A stretch of DNA of 64,000 nucleotides from Effrenium voratum. Its lineage: Eukaryota > Sar > Dinophyceae > Suessiales > Symbiodiniaceae. Of the stretch, positions 5,351 through 61,478 are shown in pieces. The notes beneath the pieces are model-generated. The model was given only the letters and a program-made list of their open reading frames with translations, was not told where the DNA came from and did not search any database. The stretch spans positions 1,440,065 through 1,504,064 of the forward strand of contig CAUJNA010001446.1 of assembly GCA_963377175.1 (NCBI GenBank), written 5' to 3'. Each line of letters opens with the position of its first letter. The first letter of the stretch is position 1. The position numbers and the translations under genes were made by a program.

Positions 5351-8300
5351 CTCCGTCCACCATGACGGTGTCCGAACCCATAGGTCGAGCGGGGTCTCCA
5401 TGTGGGGGTCTCCATGGGAAACCACGAGACACAAAGCTTTTTTTGTTTTTCGGGGGGTTCAGGTCCTTCTGCCCCCTGGACAAAAACTGGCCGATTGCCC
5501 CGAATCTTGACTTTTGGGGACTCTGACCAACCAGTTTCAAAGGGGTCAGAAGGAGACTCCGAGAACGTGAGTCGGGTTGGGCCGGGGCCCCGGTTCCCGG
5601 AAGGATGTCGACCCAATCTCGCCTGGCGCAGCCAGGGCATGGAAAGCACCGTCATGGGCGCCGGCCTTGACTTCTTCCTCGGGACGAGGAACCATTGTGT
5701 ATATATATATATATACAGACGTAAGTAAACACAGGAATAAAGACAACAAATCAAAGACACAACAAAAAGAAAACAACAAACAGGAAGATAAAACTGGCGA
5801 AGAGAAACAAGACGAAAACAACTATAGTTTGTGCATGATTGAAACTCCCGCCTACCGGCTTCGCTGGCTGTACTGGAAGTCCCAACAAATCTGAGTGACG
5901 TCAAACATTTTTTGGTAGTTTGAGGGTGCAGGTATGTCCTTTATGCAAGTGGCTGAATGTAGGCCGTGTGTCCCACTACGCCCCTGCAACATGTAGGGTG
6001 AAACCAGTCTAGGGTCCGTTCGGGGCTTGGACAACGAAGAGGCTGTAAGGGCCCAAAACATATCGGGATCCAGAAATGGCGCAAACACAGAAACGTGTAG
6101 GGCCCAAAAAGCCACAAGGATAAAACATGGGCGAAGGGAAGCCCAAAATGACAAAGGGTTGATTTGTTGTGAGCAAGAGAGTCAAATAAAACACGGTTCT
6201 GGTCGGGGCCTTGTTTTGAGGCGGGGAACATGTCTTGTGGTCCCAAGAAGACAAGGCAAAATTGCCGTTTGATGCCCACATCGTTTGCTCCTCTCATTAG
6301 GATGAAGCTTGGTTTTCAAGTGCCTGGACCCTCAAACTTCGTGGGGTGAGATGCTCCAACATTCTGTGGTGAACTCCCTTTTATAAGTTGGTCTCGTTCT
6401 TTCGGGTCCGATCCGCACCCTTTCCAAAACCCCCCATGAAATACTCAGATGTGGAAATTCCCACGGCCTAAAGGCTCCCAACTACTCCCTGGCGGCTCGA
6501 AAAGAGTTCCTGAAACCCCAAAATGTCAACCTAAAATTGGTTGGTTATAGCCACCTCAACTTCTGGTTGGTGAGTGTCCTTTGTTCTTATTTTCTGGGCA
6601 GTTTGAGGGTCCAGGTTGATATTTGAGTTGGCCTTTCCTGGTTGGTGTCCCAACAAAAGAGGGGTGGATTCGACCCTCCCGTTCGAAGGGTCCGTTTGCT
6701 GAGAATCCGTGTGAGTTGGTTCTCGTGGAAGCTGTGGCCAGCCAGTTGTTTTCCTTTGTTGAATAGCCCTTCAAAACGCCAAACGGATGCACTGCCCTGT
6801 ACGGGTTTTCAAAAGTAAAACAATGTGTGTTGTTGAAAACCGTGTTTTGCTAAGCAACCGGCTCAAAACCCGGCTTCTCGTTTGCACCCTGTATTTTCAA
6901 TCGTTCTTGGAGTAGATCTATTCACCTGGTTGCTTACCAAAAACACGGTTTCCCAAGAAAACCCGTCCAAAAACCAAAAATAACACGTAACAATGGTGGT
7001 TCTGACAAATGCAGGGCTTCTCTCTTCCTTCTCTTCCGAGCAGCTCCAATGCCAGACACTCCGTGATCAGGTCCTTGCACTCCTGGACCAAGCCGACGGG
7101 TCACCGATGTCTGAAATGAGTTGTGGCCGAAAAAAGGAACCAAAACTGGTTCTATACTCATTGCGTCCATACTTACCTGTATAGCAGGTAACCAAGGGAA
7201 CCACCCTTTAAATACCAAGAGGAAGATCGCTGGTGACGAGCGAAAGAGGTAACTTGGATCCACTGAAACAATATCTATACACTATGTATACACATGCATC
7301 TTTGCATATACCACTAAAACGGAGTGAACAAACAACAGGAGTCAGGGAGCAAGGAAACGACCCTCCGTCGGAGAGGTCAGGGCCTCTCTTGGTTCAGGTC
7401 TTTTGACCGGGCCTGTTTGAGGTCTGTGCCTACCTGGCTGAATAGATTGGCCAGAGAAGCTTCTCATTCTACCACTTAAAATGGTCTTCTGATTCTGGAG
7501 TCCTGAAAAAAACGGAGGTGGCCCCCCCCTTGCTAGGGAGCCCTAAAGGAACCCCAGGAAATGCTACAAAACCCGGCTCTCAGGTAAACCCCTGTGTATT
7601 AATATGGGGTGTCCAACTGGAATCAAACCACTTTTGGAGGGGGTTTCGGTTTTCCCCCCCCCCTTTTTAATGAACTGGCGGTGATTAAAATGTGGTCATG
7701 GAGACTCCAGGCCCCTTCTGGCTCAAAATTAAGAGCTAGGGTTACGCAGGTTTTGGTCCATGATTCCACTTGCCAGGGTTCCATTTTGGTACCGGTTTTT
7801 TGAGCCACAGCCAAATGGGTTGCCCAGAAAAAAAAGGAAAAAAACGAAGGTTAAAGGCTGAGAACTCGGCTTGGACTCAACCACCCTTAAATCAACCAAA
7901 ACTCTGCTCAGTGGATTTCCATGGGGAAAAAACAAGGTTCGGCATCCAGTTTCTTTTTGGGCTGGTTGAGTTTGAAAGGAAATAGTTGAACCCTCCCGAA
8001 AAAAAGAAAAAAAAAGAAAAAAAAACAAAACAAAAAAAAAACAAAAAAAGAGGAGGAGCAAGGGCGCCATTGGGCAACCAAAGTTGAACCGGATGGCTCC
8101 CGGAGCCAAGCCGCGTCCCGACGTCCCGACGTCCCGCGCCCCGACGTCCCCCGACTCGTCCTCTGGGACGCTCTGCCACTGCCGCCGCTTCCAATCCACC
8201 GGCGAGGCCCGGACCGCGGAGAGAAAGCCCTCCACCGTGGGGTAGCTCCATAACCTCCTCGAGATGAGAGGTATGTGGACCATTTCTTTCAAGGGGCGGA

Positions 8301-11300
8301 TTCGCAAATGGATGCCTTTTTTTGTTTTTTTTTGTTATTTATAACGGGGAAACGAGGAAGCTGCACTAGTTTGCAGGGGGTTCCCTGTGTTTATATTGAC
8401 TCTCCGTACCCTTTTCGTGTTGGTTTTTGACGACTCAGGAAACAAAACTTCCTAAAGTGGGTTGAACATCCAAGTAAACAGCAGTTCATAATTTTGATGG
8501 TAGGTATGTTGACCCTGGGCTTCAGTTGCAAGTTGCCGGGCAAGCCACCAAAAAATAATAATATGCTTGGTCCATATTTCAATGCCATTGTTTACCTGCT
8601 AGCTTCCATTTCCTGAACATTGCCCCCCCGGAAAAAGCAAAATATTATATATATATATATGTATGTATATATATATATATATGTATATACATATTATGAT
8701 AAACAAATATGTCCAGTGATGGATTCCAACTTGACAGCCAACAGGGGAAAATAACAAACATCTAGCGAATGGACGGTAAGTACCTAGATTTTGGGGTTCA
8801 GGCAGGCCATCATTGAAACAATGGTTGGATTCATGCTTCACAACCATTGAGGGTCAACCTTTATTTTTCATGGTGGCTGAGCGGCTTTCTTTCCTAGGGT
8901 AGACCCTCAAACGACAAAGCAAAAAAAAACACATGCAGGAAGAACAACCACCCCATGTTTTTGTGTTGCAATAACCCATGCTATGCTTTTCTAATTTGAG
9001 GGTCCAGGTACCTGAACCCTCAAACTTCTGACAATGGGGTATTGCAACCCAAACATATGGCTGGTGAAATCCCGGTGTTTGATGGGTGACATCCGCTTTT
9101 GTTTTTAATGGTTGTTTTTGAGTGTCCAGGTACTCGTTCCGCACCTTGTTTTGGGTGATGAAATATGAACCCAGCGTGGCCGGCCTGCAACTGAAGCCCA
9201 GGGGTCCAGTAGTGATAGATTCCCTTAAAAAAAAGAATCAGCAAATGGGAAAACGGCTATCTTTTGGCCCAACAAACAAACGCGCCCAGGGGTGTTTTTA
9301 GGGACTCTGGTGGACATTCATATGCCCAATTCAATTAAATTCATAGACACAAACGAAAGCCGTGGGGTTCTTAAACCCCAACCGTTTCAGCTTTTCAGCT
9401 TGGCTTCCCTTTAAGCCAACCCCAAAAAGGTACCCTTCGCCTCAAAACCACCCAAGGGGTTTTGCCATGTTCGTCGACATGTCCCTCCCAAATGGATCAT
9501 AGACAAATCAGAAAATCTTGACACACCTACTGTAGGGCTTTGCCACAGGGTTTAATAAACATAACCGACCATGTCCTCTCGGTTTCCCAGTAAAACCAAC
9601 CCCTGAATCCCCAAAAAGTCTTGGCCAAACAAACAAAACACACTTTTTCAGGTTTTCCCCAAAAGCATCCAAACAATGCTTCACTCGTCCGAGTGAAGAA
9701 CTCACCCTCAGCGAGTTCCCCAATCCCATGCCCAACAAGCCTTGGTTGCTGTTGACCCGTCGGCAACACCCTGACAACTCTTGCGGGTTCAGTGGCAAAA
9801 CCAACTTGATGTCCGAAACAGCTGAAGTCCAAAGATCCAACCAACAGCAATCATGCAGCTGCCGTCCACCTCAACCAAAAATGCATCTCCCAGGCCCCCC
9901 TGCCATATTTGTCCTGCTATAGTTTTATTAGGAACTATAATCATTACTGGTCTAGAAGTCTTATAAATAACATGTGCAACACATTGTTTTTCCAGAACCA
10001 CTGATACCCAAAAGCACTTGATCAGGTTTGACGACCAAAGCGAGAGAACCATCCGTCCTCGGCAGTCGACCTGTGATCATGATGTGAAGGCACAAGCCGC
10101 AGCTCCAGACGTCTTGCTTCTCCGAGGGGCTCTCACCGTCCAACACCTGGCGCCCGAAAACGCGAGGAGGAGACCCTCCTTGCAGGGTTCCACTTTTGAC
10201 TAGGGCACCTGGAGCCTCAAACTACCCATTAAAAAGGGAGTTCACCCCATAAATTTGAGCGATACTCCATTTTTTATTGGGAATTGGAGGGTCCAGGTAG
10301 ACTTAAACCCAGGCTTGGTTCATTTACAGGGGTGGTCAACAAAGTGGAACCCTGCCCCCTGTTCAAGTTGGGCAGAAAACTGCAACCCCAATTAGACCAG
10401 TCTATAGCTAAGAGCAAAGAACACGCCTGCAGGTTGGTGCCATTAGGAGTGTTTTTTTTGGTAGGGGCACCCGGCAGGCTGCCTGACATGTTGCCCTCTT
10501 CTGCATGAACCCTTTGTGAATTAAACAAAGACAACGACGCAAACTGGGTCTGTGTCTGAGTCTGCGTCTGCGCCTGTGTCTGTCTCTATGTGGGCTGGCG
10601 GGCAGGCGAGCGGGCGGGCGGGCGGGCGGGCGGGTGTGTTTGTTTGTTTGTGTGTGTGTGTGTGTCTCTGTGCGTGTTTTTGCTTGTTTGTTGGTTTGCT
10701 TGTCTGCCTGTTTGTGTGCTTGCTTGGTTGGCAGTGAGTGTTGTTGCTGAATTGACTGTTTGCTTGGTTTGCTTGTTTTGCTTGTTTGTTTGTTTGTTTG
10801 TTTGTTTGTTTGTTCGTTCGTTTGTTTGTCTGTTTGTCTGCGCGTCTGTTTGTCTGTCTGTCTTTCTGTCTGCCTGCCTGCCTGTCTGTCTGTTTCTCTG
10901 TCTGTCTCTGTCTGTCTGCTTGCCTTCCTGTCTGTTTGTTGGTTGGTTGGTTTGTTGGTGTGTGTGTGTGTGTGTGGTGTGTGTGTGTGTGGGTGGGTGC
11001 GTGGGTGCGTGGGTGCGTGGGTGCGTGGGTGCGTGGGTGCGTGGGTGCGTGCGTGGGTGCGTGGGTGGGTGGGTGAGTGGGTGCGTGGGTGGGTGGGTGG
11101 GTGGGTGGGTGGGTGGGTGGGTGGGTGTGTGTGTGTGTGTGTGCTTGTTTGTTTGTTTGTTTGATTGTTTGTTTGGTTGTTTGGTTGGTTGGTTGGTTGT
11201 TTGCTTATCTGTTTGCTTGTTTGCTTGTGTTTGTTTGTTGTAGTCGCTGCTTCAGGCCTAGGCTTAGATGTGAGATGCGGATGTCTTCTTTCGTGGAAGG

Positions 11301-14300
11301 TCGCCTTCCAAGAGAAGCCACGTGAGAAGTCAAACTCATTCGAGACAAACCCACACGCTTCCTGCCCTAAGGACCTGGATATAAGAGGACGGTTTGGAAC
11401 CTTCTTGGGAAGACTTGGATCGCCAGTCGTTTTTGTCCATCCACTTTACCCCTAAAACCAGCACTGACCGACCAAAAAACAACTTGGCTATCCAAAGGGT
11501 TATGTTTAAGGGGGCTCTGAGGAAATGGTCGGGGTTCTCCATTGGAGGGCCCCTTATGGGCTGTGCATTGGAGGGTGTTGGTCTCTTGTGAGTCGTAAGT
11601 GCAGACTGGTTGTTTTCTCACTCGACTGGTCCACAAAAGTACACCCTCCCATCCAAATTCTGGAAGACCATTGTCCTGAAAGGACCACTCCTCCGGCGGC
11701 TTCCATCAGGTAGTTGGAGTGTCAAGAGAGGCAACCCCCCCCCAAACAATACGAAAAACATAAAATGGTCTTCCCTTTTAGACCAGGCGAAAATTGGTAC
11801 GTGCCATCTCAGAAAGCACAACCTTCCCGGTTTTCACACTTTTCCCTGCAACCCCAAATCTTGCAACATATACTCAATGCCCAAAGGACTCAGAAATACA
11901 GGTGATCACCCTTTTGGCACCTTTACCCAAAATTGTTGCCAAGAAGGGATCCTGACTCCTGACGGAGCTCTCCTTACGTCTCTTAGGGCGCAACATGGAT
12001 GGGAACGCCAAAAGGCCATCTTCGTCGATTCTCCTGTGCATGGCGGCAAAACTCATTTCGCATCACGAAATGAAACCCTACCTGGAGTCTCCATGACCCC
12101 TTTAAACATGGGGTCATTACCCAAAATTAAGGGGTCATGACCCCTTTTGCTAGGGGGTCATGGAGACTCCAGGACCGTAGTTCCTTGCAATTCACACAAT
12201 TTGGACGATGACACTCCTTCGGTAAAAACTGGTGAATATGAACCCAAGGGTGGCCCCAGGGTAATGTTGACCACATTTCAACCCCCAGTGAATTCAAAAA
12301 GAGGCCTGCGGGAAAACCTCTCTGGTCTGATTCCAAGCACTAAACCCAGTTCAACCCCACCTATTAATACCTGGAGTCTCCATGACCAATAGAAAAAGGG
12401 GTCACGACCCCTTAATTTTGGGGAGACTGACCCCATTTTTAAAGGGTCAGAAGGAGACTCTAAGTATTAATAGGGGTTCATTCATACGTGGTCAAAACCA
12501 CCGCCCTTGGACAAAACCAGGGTCCCGTCCGCGCAGGCGTCCGGCGCCTCGGGCGCGGCGTACTCGGCGGTGCCCGTCATGGTCAAGGCGCCGCCGTCGT
12601 CCAAGGAGAGGGCGGTGTTGAAGTCCATGAGGCACAAGTCGTCTTGACCTCGGGCAAAACTAGTCCGAATTGTCCGATGTTCCCCGATTTTTCGGAGGTA
12701 CTCCAATTTTGCCGAATCATGGGAACCCCACAAAAAAAATGTGACTTTTTTTTCCGCGGGCCATGAATCAAATTTGATGGCCGAAATTGGAAACCAACGG
12801 GTTAAACGGTTGGCATTGGGCAAGTGGGATTGTGTTGTGTTGTAAGGGAAGCCAAAACGGAAAACCACGACCTCGACTTTGACTTTGGAGACATCGAGCG
12901 GATTGGCCAAAAGCAACCGAACTGTGGGTCCAAACCCAAAGAGCCACAAAAGTCCCGAACGGAACTCAGGGAGTGAGGAGTCACTTCGCCTACTTGTTGG
13001 TTTGCAATGGAAAACGCCAGAGAGCTTGTCTTCAAAGGAGTCGACCTTTTTGTCCTTTTGGGTTTCCCATGTTGGTCCATGTTCAGTCAAGCCACAAAAG
13101 GTTCACCTTTGAGTTCTGGCTCCTTTGGGCAACTGAGTGGGACCTCAACCATAAACATTAAACTGCACCCCAATCTTCCTGGAGTCTCCTTCTGACCGTC
13201 TAGAAATGGTTGGTCAGACTCCCCAAAATGCTTCGTCCTCCAGTAGAGAGGTTAGAATAAGGGTACCCTTTGTCTGTAGTCTATTTTTAGTAGGGGAACC
13301 CTCCCCAAAAAAAGAAGCGGTGAGAAAGGGCACTAATTACTGGGGGACCTAGATAAAGAAAGGCACCAGTGTCATCTCGACCAAAACGAAACAGAGCTGA
13401 ACAGCAGCCCAGAACTAGCAAAAAAAATATCTGCCGCGCGAGAAACTGACCCAACCCTCCGCCGGCGATGGGAACATAGAGAGGCACAAGTCATCTTAGC
13501 CTTTAAAGATGCTACAGGGAACTGACCCAACACTCCAGTGGCCATGGCCAAAAAGAGAGGCACAAGTCGTGGTTGCCGTCATCCATTGCTTAAGTCCTCT
13601 GAAACACAAGCAACACATGTCCAGTAGTGATCGATTCACTTTAAAGTCAACAGGGACAAATCAAACAACCTGGATCGCCAGTTGCAGTTTTTTTGTTTTT
13701 CCCATGCACTGTTCCCCAAAAACCAACAACAGTGACTGAAAAAAACAGCAACTGGGATATCTAGGAAAGTCTTCAGCAGATTGACGGAAGTTATCCTGAA
13801 AGATCACAATGAGTGAGTCCCGATTGTTTTCTTTTAAAGCGACATCTCCCGTGTCCCTCCCAAATGCACCATAGTCGGCTGGACATTTGACCCTCAGCCT
13901 ATAATCGATGGCATCATGAACCTCATACCCTTGAGGTAGCAGGAGGGTTACTTCACGCAATACGCAGACCATTGGGCGGTGCTTCGCAGTTTCACCGAAC
14001 TTCCTTTCGACTTCGCGTCTCCACCCTTCATGGCTGTGGTTCCAAAACCGCAATCCATCCAACAAATGGCACCTACCCTTTTCGGGTCATGACCCCTCAA
14101 ATGCACAGAACCCAAAGCCACCAATTCCTCAGGAGCCAAACAAAAACAACCCATTCTTGAGGGCCCAAAATCATCAGGACCCTTAGGGTGGTCAGACTCC
14201 CCAAAAATGGTCATGGACCCATTTTTCTAGCATCAGAGGGAGACTCCAGGAGACCCATTTTCAGGATTTGCCCAAAATCAAAAGAGGGACAGGAAAAAAA

Positions 14301-17300
14301 GACGAAAAACACCTCCCAACACCGTGATCCATCCCAACAAAAATGGCACCTTGGTCAATGTCGAAAAAAAACAGTCGAACGCCGAAAACCCGCCTTTCAA
14401 GACTGCAATCCATACAAACAATGGAAAAGCGAACACCGAAAACCCGCCTGGGGAGATCATGATATTCTCCGCCTTGATATCCCGATGCACCACCCGGCGC
14501 TCATGCAAGTGCGCCACCGCAAGCATCAGCCTCGCGACGCGGACGCTCGACGCAAAAGCTCGACGCGGATCCCCAAGGCCTTGGCGGTGGGGATCCCTAC
14601 CTGGAGTCCCCATGACCCCTAAACAAGGCAGGCTGGTCGTCCAGATCCTTCAAGAGTCAGGGTAGCATGTTGAAGCCCTTCCCTTTGAGGTCAAGACTAG
14701 AGTCTCCTTCTGACCCAGGCGGTGGGGATCCCTACCTGGCTGTGGCTCACAAAACCAAAACGGAATTCCAAAACGGGTTGCCCTGGCGGAAAAATGGGCC
14801 AACACCTGTGGTTTGCCCCTCCTGTTTAATTTTGAGCCACACCCAATTGGAGTCTCCTAGGCAGGGGGCATGACCCCTGGAGTTTTGGGTAATGGCCCCA
14901 TTTGTGAAGGGTCACGGTACTCTAGGTATGTGGAGTCTCTGCTGACCTCAACTCACTTCCGATCGAGATTGACCAAACAAAAAATAACCCACAATGCTAC
15001 CCAAATACTTTTGGAGAATCTTCCTGAGTGCATTGGCCAACAAAAGTCCCCACTTGTTATTTGCCACTAAAACGGCCTAAGCCCATGTTTTTCAAAAAGT
15101 ATCTAAAGTCCAAAATCCCAGGAACTTAGTGGTTGAGGAAACCCGAACATGAAACACACCCAAAACAAAACACACACACACACAACAGAGAGAGAGAGAG
15201 GGACCTTGGCCCCAAAACTCATGGAGGCTGGGGGGGAGGGGAGGGAGGAGCCCAAGAAAACCCTCAGTAAGCCCTTATTAAGGCCTTATTTGGGGCTTGT
15301 TTGGGCTCTCTCCCCCTCCCCTCCCTCCCCCCCAGCCCCCATAAAAAACAGACCTTAGGGAAGGGATACCTGCCATTTGGGTGCCCCACTCGGGTGAACC
15401 TGCCTGCAAGGTATCATTTGGGTCTGTCTTTTTTGCGGATGCCTCATTCTTTTTCTGGCTTTGAAGGGAAACCAAGATGAACACCGAAGCCATTTTGGGG
15501 GGGTCCGATTCTCCTTTTGAGACATACATTTCAAGCGTTCGTGAAATTGCTCAAGTTCTTTCTCGCTGGTTCTCAGCCAAATCCCTGAGAAATGGAATAC
15601 ACCATCCGAGTTGGTTTCAAATCCTTTCGGGAATCCATCCAATACCGGCTCACACTGGCTGAGTGGATGGCCCAAAAAAAGTTCAGACTTTATAATTACC
15701 ACTAAAATGGTCTTCCCAAAAAGTTTAAAGTTCATGAACTCAGGAAGTGAGTCATTCAACCAACGCCCTGACTCGGTCCTCAAAACACCTATCTCACCAC
15801 CTGAAGGGTCATGACCCCTCCAATGCAGACCCCATAAGGGGCCCTCCAATGGAAGACTCATAGCGACCAAATTCCTCAAGGATCCCGAAAGAAAAACAAC
15901 CTATTTGCCCAAAACCAATCGAATCACTTCCAGTTGGTTAAGCCCCCTCTTAAAAAAATAATAATAATAAAATATGTGTCCAGTAGTGATAGATTCCCTT
16001 TAAAACCGAGAAGGGATAATAACACATATTCCCCTAAGGGTCCCGACTGTTATTGGGCAAATCCTCAAAATGGGTTGTTTTTGAGGACCCTTGAAGCCTT
16101 GAGGAACTGGTCGGGGTTCTTCATTGGAGGGCCGGTCCGGGGGTCTGCATTGGAGGGGTCATGACCCGAAAAGGGTCTTCACCAAATGGTAGATCAGACC
16201 CTTGGCAGCAAAAAGCCGCATCCAAGTCGCAGTCGGAAAAGCTTCTGCGCCGTAGCGACGGGGAACCCGGTCTCCTGGCGAAGTCTTGCGTGGCCTGCAG
16301 CCCTCGTATGGACCTGAACCCAGAAACTACCCAAGAAAAACTGGGAGTTCGCCTCATGTGGAGCAACCACCCATGTTTTTGTTTCCCTTTTCCGTGTCCA
16401 GGAAACTGCAATTGTTGCTTGGGCTTGAAAGAGAAGCCAAAAGGAAAGCCAAAGCCACTGTTTCTCTTCTTCTGTTTTGCCCTCTCTTTTTTTGGGGAGG
16501 GCCGGCTGATTCCTAAACAAAGACACACCCACCAGCTTGGCTTGGCTTGTGCTGGATTCACGTGTTGCTACATAGTTTTGCCTTCGTTTGTTTGGAGCCC
16601 GGCTCCAAGTGTGAGGTTCCACAGGCTGGCGGGTCTTCAAAATGTAAGAGGTTCGGGGGAGACTTTTCTTGGTTGACGTTGGAAGGGGAGCCAAAACTAA
16701 AATTTTAGCTGTTAAGTGAGATTTCAACCACTAAACCACAATAAGCAAAAAATGTAAATTGTTTTCCAACAACAACCAAGTTTTCCACAATCTGCAGGGT
16801 ACCTCCTTTCTGGGAAACAACACTTGGCGCATCCGGGCCAGGAAAACATTCGGGGTACCCTCAAACTACCCTTAAAAAAATGGAACTGTGGGTTGCAACT
16901 CACCCCAGTTTTAAGTCGGTAGTTGGAGGGTCCATGATGTGTTCCTTGCTTTTGTTTCATAGACTACCAATACACCGCTTCAGCATCTTAACGGCACTCG
17001 GTCCGAATTCTTCCAACGCTCTCCCATGGAGCGTTCAAGGGTTAGGGAGTATTGGGTGTTTTATGCTGGCCCCCCAAACCAGTTTTCCTTTGGTTTCCCT
17101 TTGCCCTCAAAAGAAACCACACCCATATGGGGTTGTCCTCTTGCATCCAATCCCCTTCCGCCATTCCCGCCTTCAATTGTCTGATGCTTGGTGTCCAACT
17201 CATCGAGTGGTTGGGCCAAACAAGTCCAAACTTGTTATTCACAAGTGACTAAAGTCCGAAACGCAACTCCGGAAGTGAGTCAAGTTTGAATTCAAACCCC

Positions 17301-30798: not shown

Positions 30799-32103
30799 TC
30801 AATGCATCACCAGCTTCTCTTGCACCTCACTGCTGTCTCCGCCACATTCCAGATCCCCCCAAGTCACAAGAGCCCCGGATGCCAGAAAGGCCGCAAAAGC
30901 CGCCTTGGTTCCTTGGATTTGCTGCACATTCCGCAGCTTGTCTTGCACCGCGCGGCAGTCTCCCCCGTAAAGTGGATTGCCCCACGTCACTACATCCCCA
31001 GATTCCAAAATGGCTGCAAATGCTCCGCCAGTCGCCTGGAGTTCCTTGACACTTCTCAGCTTCACTTGCACCTGGCTGCAGTCTCCACCGCGATCTGGAT
31101 CACCCCATGTCACAACAGCTCCTGATTCTAGAATGGCGGCAAAAGCCGCCTCAGTTCCTTGGATTTGCTGCACATTCCGCAGCTGGTCTTGCACCTGGCT
31201 GCTGTCTCCGCCCCTGTCTGGATAACCCCAGGTCACAACATCCCCAGATTCCAAAATAGCAGCAAAAGCAAAACAAGTTGCTTGGACTTTCTGGACATTT
31301 CTCAGCTGCTCTTGCACCCGCCTGCTGTCTCCTCCGCATTCTGAATGACCCCATGTCACAACATCCCCAGAATCCAGAATGGCAGCGAACGCACCGTCAG
31401 TCGCCTGGATTTGCCGCGCATTCCTCAGTCCGGCTTCCGCGAACAAATCGCCGCCATAAAATTGATGGCCCCAGGTCACTACATCCCCAGATTGCAAAAT
31501 AGCAGCAACAGCACGATTTGTTGCTTGGATTTGGTGCAAATTCCACAGCTGGCTGAAGTCCCCACCACAACGAGAATCACCCCAGATCCCAACTGCCCCA
31601 GACTCCAGAATGGCAGCAAAAGCCAAGCGAGTTGCTTGTACTTGCTGGACGTTCTTCAGCTGCGCTTGCACCCTGCTGCTGTCGCCGCCGCGGTCTGGGT
31701 AACCCCATGTTACAACAGCCCCTGATTCCAGAATGGCAGCAAACGCACCATCAGTCGCTTGGATTTGCTGCACATTCCGCAGCTGCTCTTGCACTTGGCT
31801 GCTGTCTCCACCGTGCTCTGGATTGCCCCATGTCAACACCAGTCCTTGGACATGCAAAGCAAACGCCTTTGCAGTGGCAGCTAGCGTCACCGGCTGAACC
31901 ACCGCATCCACGGTGTCCCCATCTCGCAAGCCAGCCTGGCTCAAGGTGACCGTTAAATCCAGCGGCCGGCGGTTCACGATGAGCCTCAGGCTGCCGCGCT
32001 GGAAATGCCGCTGAGCTGCAGCCTTCAGCGCGCTGAGACGCGTCTCTGGTGAGAGTGAGGTCGAGAAACCGCTGCCGCTGGGCAAGTGGACGACTAGTCG
32101 CAT
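30799..32103 (-). CDS. RCC1-like repeat protein with ubiquitin-like N-terminus
   Basis: Intronless frame of 434 codons from the chosen start MRLVVHLPSGSGF. Residues 1 to about 70 resemble a ubiquitin-like fold (LTVTLSQAGLRDGDTVDAVV). Then come eight full 37-41-residue repeats of the form VVTWG(x)4GGDSS(x)VQ(x)QLRNVQQIQAT(x)3FAAILESG and one cut-off repeat, ending EKLVMH. Repeat 3 lacks part of the QL helix. Proteins of this plan are abundant in Symbiodiniaceae and are usually labelled RCC1/HERC/UVR8-like; a beta-propeller is expected but no function is proven. The frame stays open 42 codons upstream to 32229, but that part lies in a palindrome, so the Met at 32103 is preferred; GCTCAG|GCTGC 24 bases before it could be a splice or trans-splice site. 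C-terminal truncation is possible. Confidence 0.93.
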   Translation of the reverse strand: MRLVVHLPSGSGFSTSLSPETRLSALKAAAQRHFQRGSLRLIVNRRPLDLTVTLSQAGLRDGDTVDAVVQPVTLAATAKAFALHVQGLVLTWGNPEHGGDSSQVQEQLRNVQQIQATDGAFAAILESGAVVTWGYPDRGGDSSRVQAQLKNVQQVQATRLAFAAILESGAVGIWGDSRCGGDFSQLWNLHQIQATNRAVAAILQSGDVVTWGHQFYGGDLFAEAGLRNARQIQATDGAFAAILDSGDVVTWGHSECGGDSRRVQEQLRNVQKVQATCFAFAAILESGDVVTWGYPDRGGDSSQVQDQLRNVQQIQGTEAAFAAILESGAVVTWGDPDRGGDCSQVQVKLRSVKELQATGGAFAAILESGDVVTWGNPLYGGDCRAVQDKLRNVQQIQGTKAAFAAFLASGALVTWGDLECGGDSSEVQEKLVMH

Positions 32104-32198
32104 GACTAGGAGCCGAGGGAATGCAGCCTGAGCAAAAACTTGAAGCAAACAGTCCAAGAAGGCAATCTGCCACTGGCTTAAAGGGCTCATCAAACGCC

Positions 32199-32313
32199 CG
32201 TTGCCCGGCGGGCAAAAAAAGACAGGCAAACCTTGTATTTGAGTCTTGCCTTTTCAACAGGCAAGACTCAAATAGAAGGTGTGCCTGTTTTGTTTTCTTG
32301 CCCGGGCAACGGG
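32199..32313. repeat. 115-nt palindrome upstream of the RCC1-like gene
   Basis: Left arm: CGTTGCCCGGCGGGCAAAA, ACAGGCA, ATTTGAGTCTTGCC. Right arm: GGCAAGACTCAAAT, TGCCTGTTTTG, TTGCCCGGGCAACG. The loop is about 9 bases (TTTTCAACA). A partial third copy of TTTGAGTCTTGCC follows at 32318-32330. It could be a foldback element or form a hairpin in an upstream transcript. Confidence 0.9.
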
Positions 32314-59773: not shown

Positions 59774-61360
59774 GTAAGGGTTGACATCATACCAAAAATA
59801 AATAAATAAAAGGTTGACATCATACCATTCGAGAAACAAATTAAACGGTTGACATCATACCATCTGAGAAACAAAAAACAAAGGGTTGACATCATACCAA
59901 CTGAAGAAAAAAAGGTTGACATCATACCATCTCAAACAACTAAAGGGTTGCCATCATGCCAACTAAAAAACCCTAAAGGGTTGACGTTATACCAACTGAA
60001 CAAAATATAGAGGATTGACATCACACCAACTGAACAAACAAACTAAAGGCTTGACATCATACCATCCGAGAGCAAAAAAACACTAAAGGGTTGACATCAT
60101 ACCATCTGAAAAAACAAAAACAAACTAAAGGGTTGACATCATACCAACTGAAAAAAACAAAGTTGACATCATACCAACTGAACAAAAATCCTATAAAAGG
60201 TTGACATCATACCATCCGAGAAAACAACAATAAATTAAACGCTTGACATCGTGCTATCCAAACAAAAAAACCAAAGGGTTGACATCATGCCAAATGAAAA
60301 GACACTAAAGGGTTGACATATGTTGACATCATACCAACTGAAACAACCTGAAGGGTTGACATCATACCAACTGAAGAAAACCAACAAAGAAAGGGTTGTC
60401 ATCATGCCAACTAAAAACAAACAAAAGGGTTGACGTCATACCAACTGAAACAAAATATAGAGGGTTGACATCAGACCATCTGACAAAAAAAAAAACTAAA
60501 GGGTTGACATCATGGCAACTGAAACAAGAACAACTAAAGGGTTGGCATCGTACCCATTGTTTAAAGAACTTCAGCGTTGACATCATACCAACTGGAGAAA
60601 AAAAAAAAAAACACCTAACATGTTGACATAATTCCATCCAAGAAAAAAACTAAACGGTTAACATCATTCCAGCCGGGCAAAAAACAACTAAGGGTTGACA
60701 GCATATTCACAGAAACAAATCCAAAGGGTTGACATCATACCAACTGAAAAAAGGGTTGACATCACACCAACAAAAAAACATCTAAAGGGTTGACATCATA
60801 CCATCTGACAAAAGCAAAAATAGTTGACATCATACCAACTGGAAGAAAATCATAAAGGGTTGACATCATACCAACTGAAAAAAACACATAAAAGGTTGAC
60901 ATCATACCATTCGAGAACAAAACACACGACAAACTACAGGGTTAACATTATGCCGTCCGGAAAAAAAAAAGGCAAACACAAATTAGGGTTGACATAATAC
61001 CAACTGAAACAATTCTAAAGGGTTGACATCACACCAACTGAACAAAAACAAACTAAAGGGTTGACATCGTACCCTCTGAAATAATAATAATAATAAAACT
61101 CAAGGGTTGACATCATACCAACAAAAACAACTTCAACAAAACAAACATAACAATAAAGGCTTGACATCATACCATCCGATAATCAAAAACAACTAATGGG
61201 TTGACATCATACCAACTGAACAACAAAACAAAGCGTTGAAATCATACTTAAACAAAAAAAACAACTATGGGTTAACATCACACAGAACCAAGTGAACAAA
61301 GCTAAAGGATTGACATCATACCAACTGCAAAACAACCTGAAGGGTTGACATCAAAACCCA
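59774..61360. repeat. Minisatellite of about 43 units
   Basis: Roughly 1.6 kb of imperfect tandem units of about 30-45 bp. The conserved part is GGGTTGACATCATACCAACT (also ...CCATCTGA or ...CCATCCGA), the spacer A-rich and variable in length (CAAAAAAACTAAA types). Units drift (GACGTT, GCCATC, ATACC to ACACC) throughout. No coding potential is convincing. The left edge sits in an F4-like segment at 59700-59790, and F4 carries GTCGACATCATACC in its core, so the array probably arose by expansion of that core. Confidence 0.95.
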
Positions 61361-61478
61361 ACTGCGCCTCGCCAGGACACATGGCGTGAAATCTCGCGGG
61401 TACCAACTGTGCATTTTGCGACCCGAAGCCTTGGACCGGACCCGAGCCTCACGCAACTTTGGTCGGTAAAGATCGCCC

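Follow-up and report, generated by a model that had tools for sequence, protein, structure and literature searches.

A short UvrB-derived fragment of bacterial type in a protein kinase intron of a Symbiodiniaceae-like dinoflagellate

The window analysed here, a stretch of 64,000 nucleotides on contig C1446 (Effrenium voratum, CAUJNA010001446.1; assembly of 1.156 Gb in 3699 contigs), carries a protein kinase gene on its minus strand, and one intron of that gene holds a piece of about 120 bp, here called the insert, that reads as part of the bacterial protein UvrB. Pieced together, the kinase exons gave 17 protein matches, one of them in Effrenium voratum (58%, E 1.1e-36) and another in Durusdinium trenchii (E 4.4e-28); both species belong to the Symbiodiniaceae. 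For a 79-residue read that includes the exon ahead of the insert, Pfam gave Pkinase below its cut-off (E 0.0018), and a 69-residue read of the following exon alone had no Pfam match. The kinase alignment ends the first of these exons just past GRLPRTDG, close to 10048, and has coding resume at about 8247; the UvrB piece therefore lies in an intron, some 20-40 bp beyond the exon edge and about 1.65 kb ahead of the exon that follows. This agrees with an earlier interpretation of the letters alone (the sequence-only reading), which had placed a bacterial UvrB-like fragment in a dinoflagellate kinase intron, 35 bp past an exon border.

The same reading had described UvrB-like peptides on the minus strand interrupted by one frame change, and both translation and NCBIfam recover them in that place (Table 1). 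Between the two pieces a single residue stands in all 181 ungapped UvrB rows with which the insert was compared (61 loci together with 120 proteins chosen for their similarity to L157, which is among the nearest UvrB genes listed; duplicates were left in, and rows that were gapped or had E above 1e-3 were dropped). Two bases of a codon have thus been lost at 9981, and the frame change there leaves the insert without one open reading frame.

Table 1. Features of the insert and of the kinase gene around it, in window coordinates
Feature	Position	Strand	Sequence	Basis or remark
UvrB fragment, piece 1 (Walker A region)	10020-9982	minus	QVLLGISGSGKTM	NCBIfam NF003673 positions 30-46
One leftover base, remnant of the codon short of two bases (frame change)	9981	minus		
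UvrB fragment, piece 2	9980-9903	minus	VAHVIYKTSRPVMIIVPNKTIAGQIW	NCBIfam NF003673 positions 45-71
Kinase exon	10048..10155, 3' edge +/- ~10 bases	minus	GRQVLDGESPSEKQDVWSCGLCLHIMITGRLPRTDG	Alignment to Symbiodiniaceae kinases
Next kinase exon	8155..8247, approximate	minus	SYPTVEGFLSAVRASPVDWKRRQWQSVPEDE	Alignment to P0001-P0009 continues here
Upstream kinase exon	12545..12649, approximate	minus	GQDDLCLMDFNTALSLDDGGALTMTGTAEYAAPEA	
Upstream kinase exon	14455..14559, approximate	minus	AFASSVRVARLMLAVAHLHERRVVHRDIKAENIMI	
Intron holding the insert	8260..10047, approximate ends	minus		
High-copy dispersed host repeat downstream of the insert	9728..9863	minus		39 other copies listed, 75-81% identical

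Support for UvrB reaches beyond the P-loop. Searched alone against NCBIfam, piece 2 matched two UvrB models exclusively (best E 2e-4); the pieces lie next to each other in the UvrB profile, and the read that joins them through an X gave E 1.6e-11 and 43.3 bits over profile positions 32-70, which bears out a derivation from UvrB of bacterial type. Pfam, whose models are broader, returned weak ATPase matches for the joined read (best ResIII, E 0.0015, below cut-off) and no match for piece 2 alone, while among sequences of solved structures the top 15 of the 23 listed were all UvrB. When the 40-residue query was run against 14 mixed bacterial genomes, its top match fell within a frame of 663-798 residues in 13 of them (E <= 1.6e-7); the fourteenth gave E 1.61. 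A UvrB matrix, built on a panel chosen partly by similarity to the insert, scored 76.4 bits at the insert as against 2.7 bits for the rest of the window.

The residues themselves follow the family (TIGR00631 / NF003673). The Walker A stretch Q.LLG.TGSGKTFT.A..I is present with the conservative changes Ile6, Ser7 and Met13, and the stretch that follows it in UvrB, RP...APNKTLAAQLY, appears as RPVMIIVPNKTIAGQIW. These three residues of the insert and four others (Tyr20, Ile35, Ile39 and Trp40) each occur in none of the 181 UvrB rows. The insert spans about 40 of some 660 UvrB codons with two bases missing, and the 43.3 bits of the joined read compare with curated full-length cut-offs of 743 or 750 bits. 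The insert is a UvrB-derived fragment and not a working UvrB.

Its limits can be placed approximately. The codon ahead of piece 1 (10023-10021) encodes Asp, and since 116 of the 120 UvrB proteins chosen for likeness to L157 have Asp before the corresponding Gln, the insert may begin at about 10023. Beyond piece 2, no UvrB resemblance was seen by eye in any of the three downstream frames. The AT-rich block to which the sequence-only reading had pointed is real, its GC content being 0.34 where the window averages 0.49, but it is not rare, as 1.9% of 120-base windows have a GC content as low or lower. Resolved by codon position, the GC content of the insert is 0.44, 0.41 and 0.18 at positions 1, 2 and 3, which is like the coding DNA of an AT-rich bacterium. 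A scan of the window for AT-rich frames with low third-position GC gave 38 overlapping 25-codon matches, of which only the insert looked conserved by eye; the other matches were not searched.

The sequence-only reading had also called the fragment decayed, and here the evidence divides. Between the insert and L157 there are 42 differences, distributed as 12, 6 and 24 over codon positions 1, 2 and 3 (chi-square p 0.0025). They produce 14 amino-acid changes, against a mean of 24.4 when 42 substitutions are placed at random, and the mean BLOSUM score is +1.07, against -0.69 for random placement, a value reached in none of 5000 runs. The absence of stop codons counts for little by itself, since 30% of neutral runs are stop-free too. 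Furthermore, of the 16 residues that are invariant in the 181 UvrB rows the insert keeps 13, where 6.0 would be expected under neutrality and where 13 were reached in a single one of 20000 neutral runs of 42 substitutions; the three that differ have changed conservatively (Thr to Ser, and Leu to Ile twice). The codon pattern and the retention of invariant residues show, within the reach of such a comparison, that most of the divergence arose while the gene still worked, before any insertion. Later decay would then amount to the two-base loss plus, perhaps, as many as ten or so substitutions: three lost invariant residues correspond roughly to the effect of about ten random substitutions, and three or fewer of the 16 are lost in 68% of runs at 10 random substitutions and in 39% at 14. 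Such limited decay therefore suggests that the insertion is not very old, or else that the piece is an artefact.

Host sequence flanks the insert on both sides, with kinase exons in either direction and, from about 40 bp past the insert, the dispersed repeat of Table 1, no listed copy of which extends into the insert. The insert was found once in the assembly; in the own-assembly DNA search of this region, 40 of 536 candidates were scored. Other repeats occur in the window. A long simple-repeat stretch of the CAAA/CACC type (10521-11251) occupies the intron before kinase exon 10155-10048, short repeats of the GGAGTCTCCATGACCCC type, about 95 bp long, are dispersed over 12080-12470 and many other places, in both orientations and in dozens of copies, and an AT-rich tandem array based on GGTTGACATCATACCA, with a strong skew of A over T, fills 59776-61364. 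Elsewhere on the minus strand, at 30799-32253, a 484-residue open frame has RCC1-like repeats (Pfam RCC1_2, E 2.7e-25) and a period of about 123 bases in its DNA, together with a weak ubiquitin-like stretch near its start that falls below cut-off.

As to the source, the best match by E among those listed is the UvrB of G193, a 0.9 Mb genome with a GC content of 0.32 around the gene, which shares 25 of 40 residues with the insert, as does G532. In G193 this UvrB is P0018 ('MAG: excinuclease ABC subunit UvrB [Rhodospirillaceae bacterium]') and is the same gene as L157; of the 120 UvrB proteins similar to L157, 8 have 25 of 39 residues in common with the insert, and none has more. The insert has GSGKT, NKT.A.Q, AHVI, PNKT and the Asp before the first Gln in common with UvrB of alphaproteobacterial type, and AHVI, PNKT and this Asp are common in the alphaproteobacterial-type sequences compared. 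Composition and residues together point to an AT-rich bacterium with a UvrB of alphaproteobacterial or similar type as the probable donor, 40 residues being no proof. Genome surveys, whose samples overlap, gave matches to the 40 residues in 374 of 398 genomes from the phylum of G009 (E <= 1e-3), in 264 of 297 from the order of G193 (E <= 1e-6) and in 10 of 385 from the class of G193 (E <= 2e-12). At this last threshold none was found among 201 genomes in the order of G007 or 198 in the phylum of G003, which proves nothing; G007 and G003 themselves match the insert at weaker E.

Searches for a closer source were negative within the collections covered. Padded with X to the length of UvrB, the 40 residues drew 11 candidates and no match in a protein search; a degenerate DNA pattern for NKTIAGQ hit at least 120 stretches in genome contigs, with no UvrB by local tblastn (E <= 0.01) among the 120 listed; and DNA searches of plasmids and phages gave short matches alone, at E 0.4 or worse among those listed. 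DNA near-identical to the insert was not found in the collections searched. The sequence-only reading had named bacterial, endosymbiont or organelle-targeted DNA as sources. An endosymbiont is a possible source, but the piece is too short to name a donor. Bacteria that could supply such DNA do exist: fluorescence in situ hybridization has shown alphaproteobacteria within Symbiodiniaceae newly isolated from an anemone (PMC8245515), and alphaproteobacterial genomes of 2.9-3.9 Mb have been described from Symbiodiniaceae assemblies by authors who regard them as not obligate intracellular bacteria (PMC10915500). The organelle-targeted source found no support, and we rejected it on gene content: uvrB is not known to be a dinoflagellate organelle gene.

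We infer, with a probability of roughly 0.7, that a piece of a bacterial, AT-rich uvrB gene, about 120 bp long and comprising the codons of the Walker A stretch and of the NKT motif that follows, entered a kinase-gene intron in the nucleus of a Symbiodiniaceae-like dinoflagellate by capture at a break. The stray DNA would have come from prey or from a bacterium living in the cell or attached to it, and would have been caught as filler when a double-strand break was repaired by end joining. Spliced out with the intron, broken in frame and lacking the rest of UvrB, the insert would for these reasons have no function now. The longest word common to the flanks of both junctions is 6 bases, which gives no target-site duplication or terminal repeat, and a mobile element, having left neither of these nor a second copy that we could see, is an unlikely origin and was rejected.

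Several points weigh against this account. The break-repair route is argued just from the lack of other marks, and both junctions come from one assembly, which also has bacterial-type contigs. Exon and insert matched only themselves among the 40 candidates scored, with no paralogous exon listed that could offer an empty site. No close donor emerged, the highest identity among the matches listed being 63% over 40 residues. Finally, L157 stands as a proxy for the donor in the divergence analysis, and the invariant positions derive from a panel weighted towards relatives of L157, so that those figures are rough.

Of the rival explanations, the most serious is that a bacterial read or short contaminant was built into the dinoflagellate contig during library preparation or assembly, for example at a filled gap. 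The assembly does hold bacterial-type sequence. Two intact UvrB genes of bacterial type were found, L123 (G000:C3679:28518-30503; locus GC 0.37) and L124 (G000:C2223:792710-794737; locus GC 0.65), with UvrB scores of 1012 and 992 bits, which makes it probable that two or more bacteria have contigs in this assembly; a ribosomal RNA search, in which 5 of 15223 candidates were scored, gave no name for them. The length of the insert is close to that of a short sequencing read, and its limited decay would also suit an artefact. However, the insert is just 52.5% and 55% identical to the intact UvrBs on C3679 and C2223, so neither contig is its source, and the rest of the assembly yielded no uvrB that matches it. 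Both flanks are host sequence in which the kinase exons keep their order, and the window is free of N. The two-base loss within a conserved stretch is not what a correct read from a living bacterium would be expected to give, although a read error could cause it. On this balance we consider an artefact unlikely, but the chief competitor to a nuclear insertion.

Considerably less probable is a virus, phage or plasmid carrying uvrB, in place of a bacterial chromosome, as the donor. Such carriers exist, and tblastn found 39 phage and 203 plasmid records, with best listed identities of 57.9% and 57.5%; none among the matches listed, however, is nearer than the bacterial genomes. The PNKTIAGQ pattern occurred in no viral contig, the GISGSGKTM pattern occurred in 8 that matched query residues 3-25 at most (E 0.046 or worse), and another viral scan found one relative among 29 pattern matches, 45% identical with a gap. 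That the dinoflagellate itself has a nuclear uvrB-like gene of which the insert is an exon is barely credible: the insert is broken in frame and far in composition from the adjacent host exon, and when the whole assembly was searched with a UvrB profile, the ground on which this candidate was rejected, 29 places were listed, the sole one on this contig being the insert (E 6.75). A chance resemblance to a P-loop is a negligible prospect and was ruled out, for although piece 1 alone is a common motif, with UvrB (NF003673, E 0.086) ranked in NCBIfam behind a nickel transporter ATPase (E 0.058), piece 2 points to UvrB by itself at the adjacent profile position and none of 200 sequences of 64 kb simulated with a Markov model exceeded 10.8 bits on the UvrB matrix.

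If the nuclear insertion is real, it would mean that dinoflagellate nuclei take up very short pieces of bacterial DNA, which gene-based screens for horizontal transfer would probably miss, and such pieces may keep enough signal to indicate past bacterial partners. More tentatively, and on the doubtful side, the insert could be the trace of an undescribed, AT-rich and fast-evolving alphaproteobacterial associate that lacks close kin in the collections searched, with more such short pieces in the nucleus that would then reveal past bacterial partners. On its own, the insert would be a scrap without function.

The part of the literature that we searched yielded no report of a bacterial scrap in a dinoflagellate intron, but related phenomena are known. 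Wolbachia fossils in nematode nuclear genomes (PMC4046930, PMC2882956) are, like the insert, bacterial DNA in a host nuclear genome. There the donor is named and, in one case, the transferred DNA amounts to nearly 1 Mb (PMC4046930), whereas ours is a single piece of about 120 bp in a dinoflagellate host, for which the searches gave no close donor. Nuclear mitochondrial and plastid DNA segments (numts and nupts; PMC6215612) likely share with the insert the route of break capture by end joining; they consist of organelle DNA, whereas the source here is bacterial. The insert is best read as a new case of a known kind, a functionless piece of bacterial DNA.
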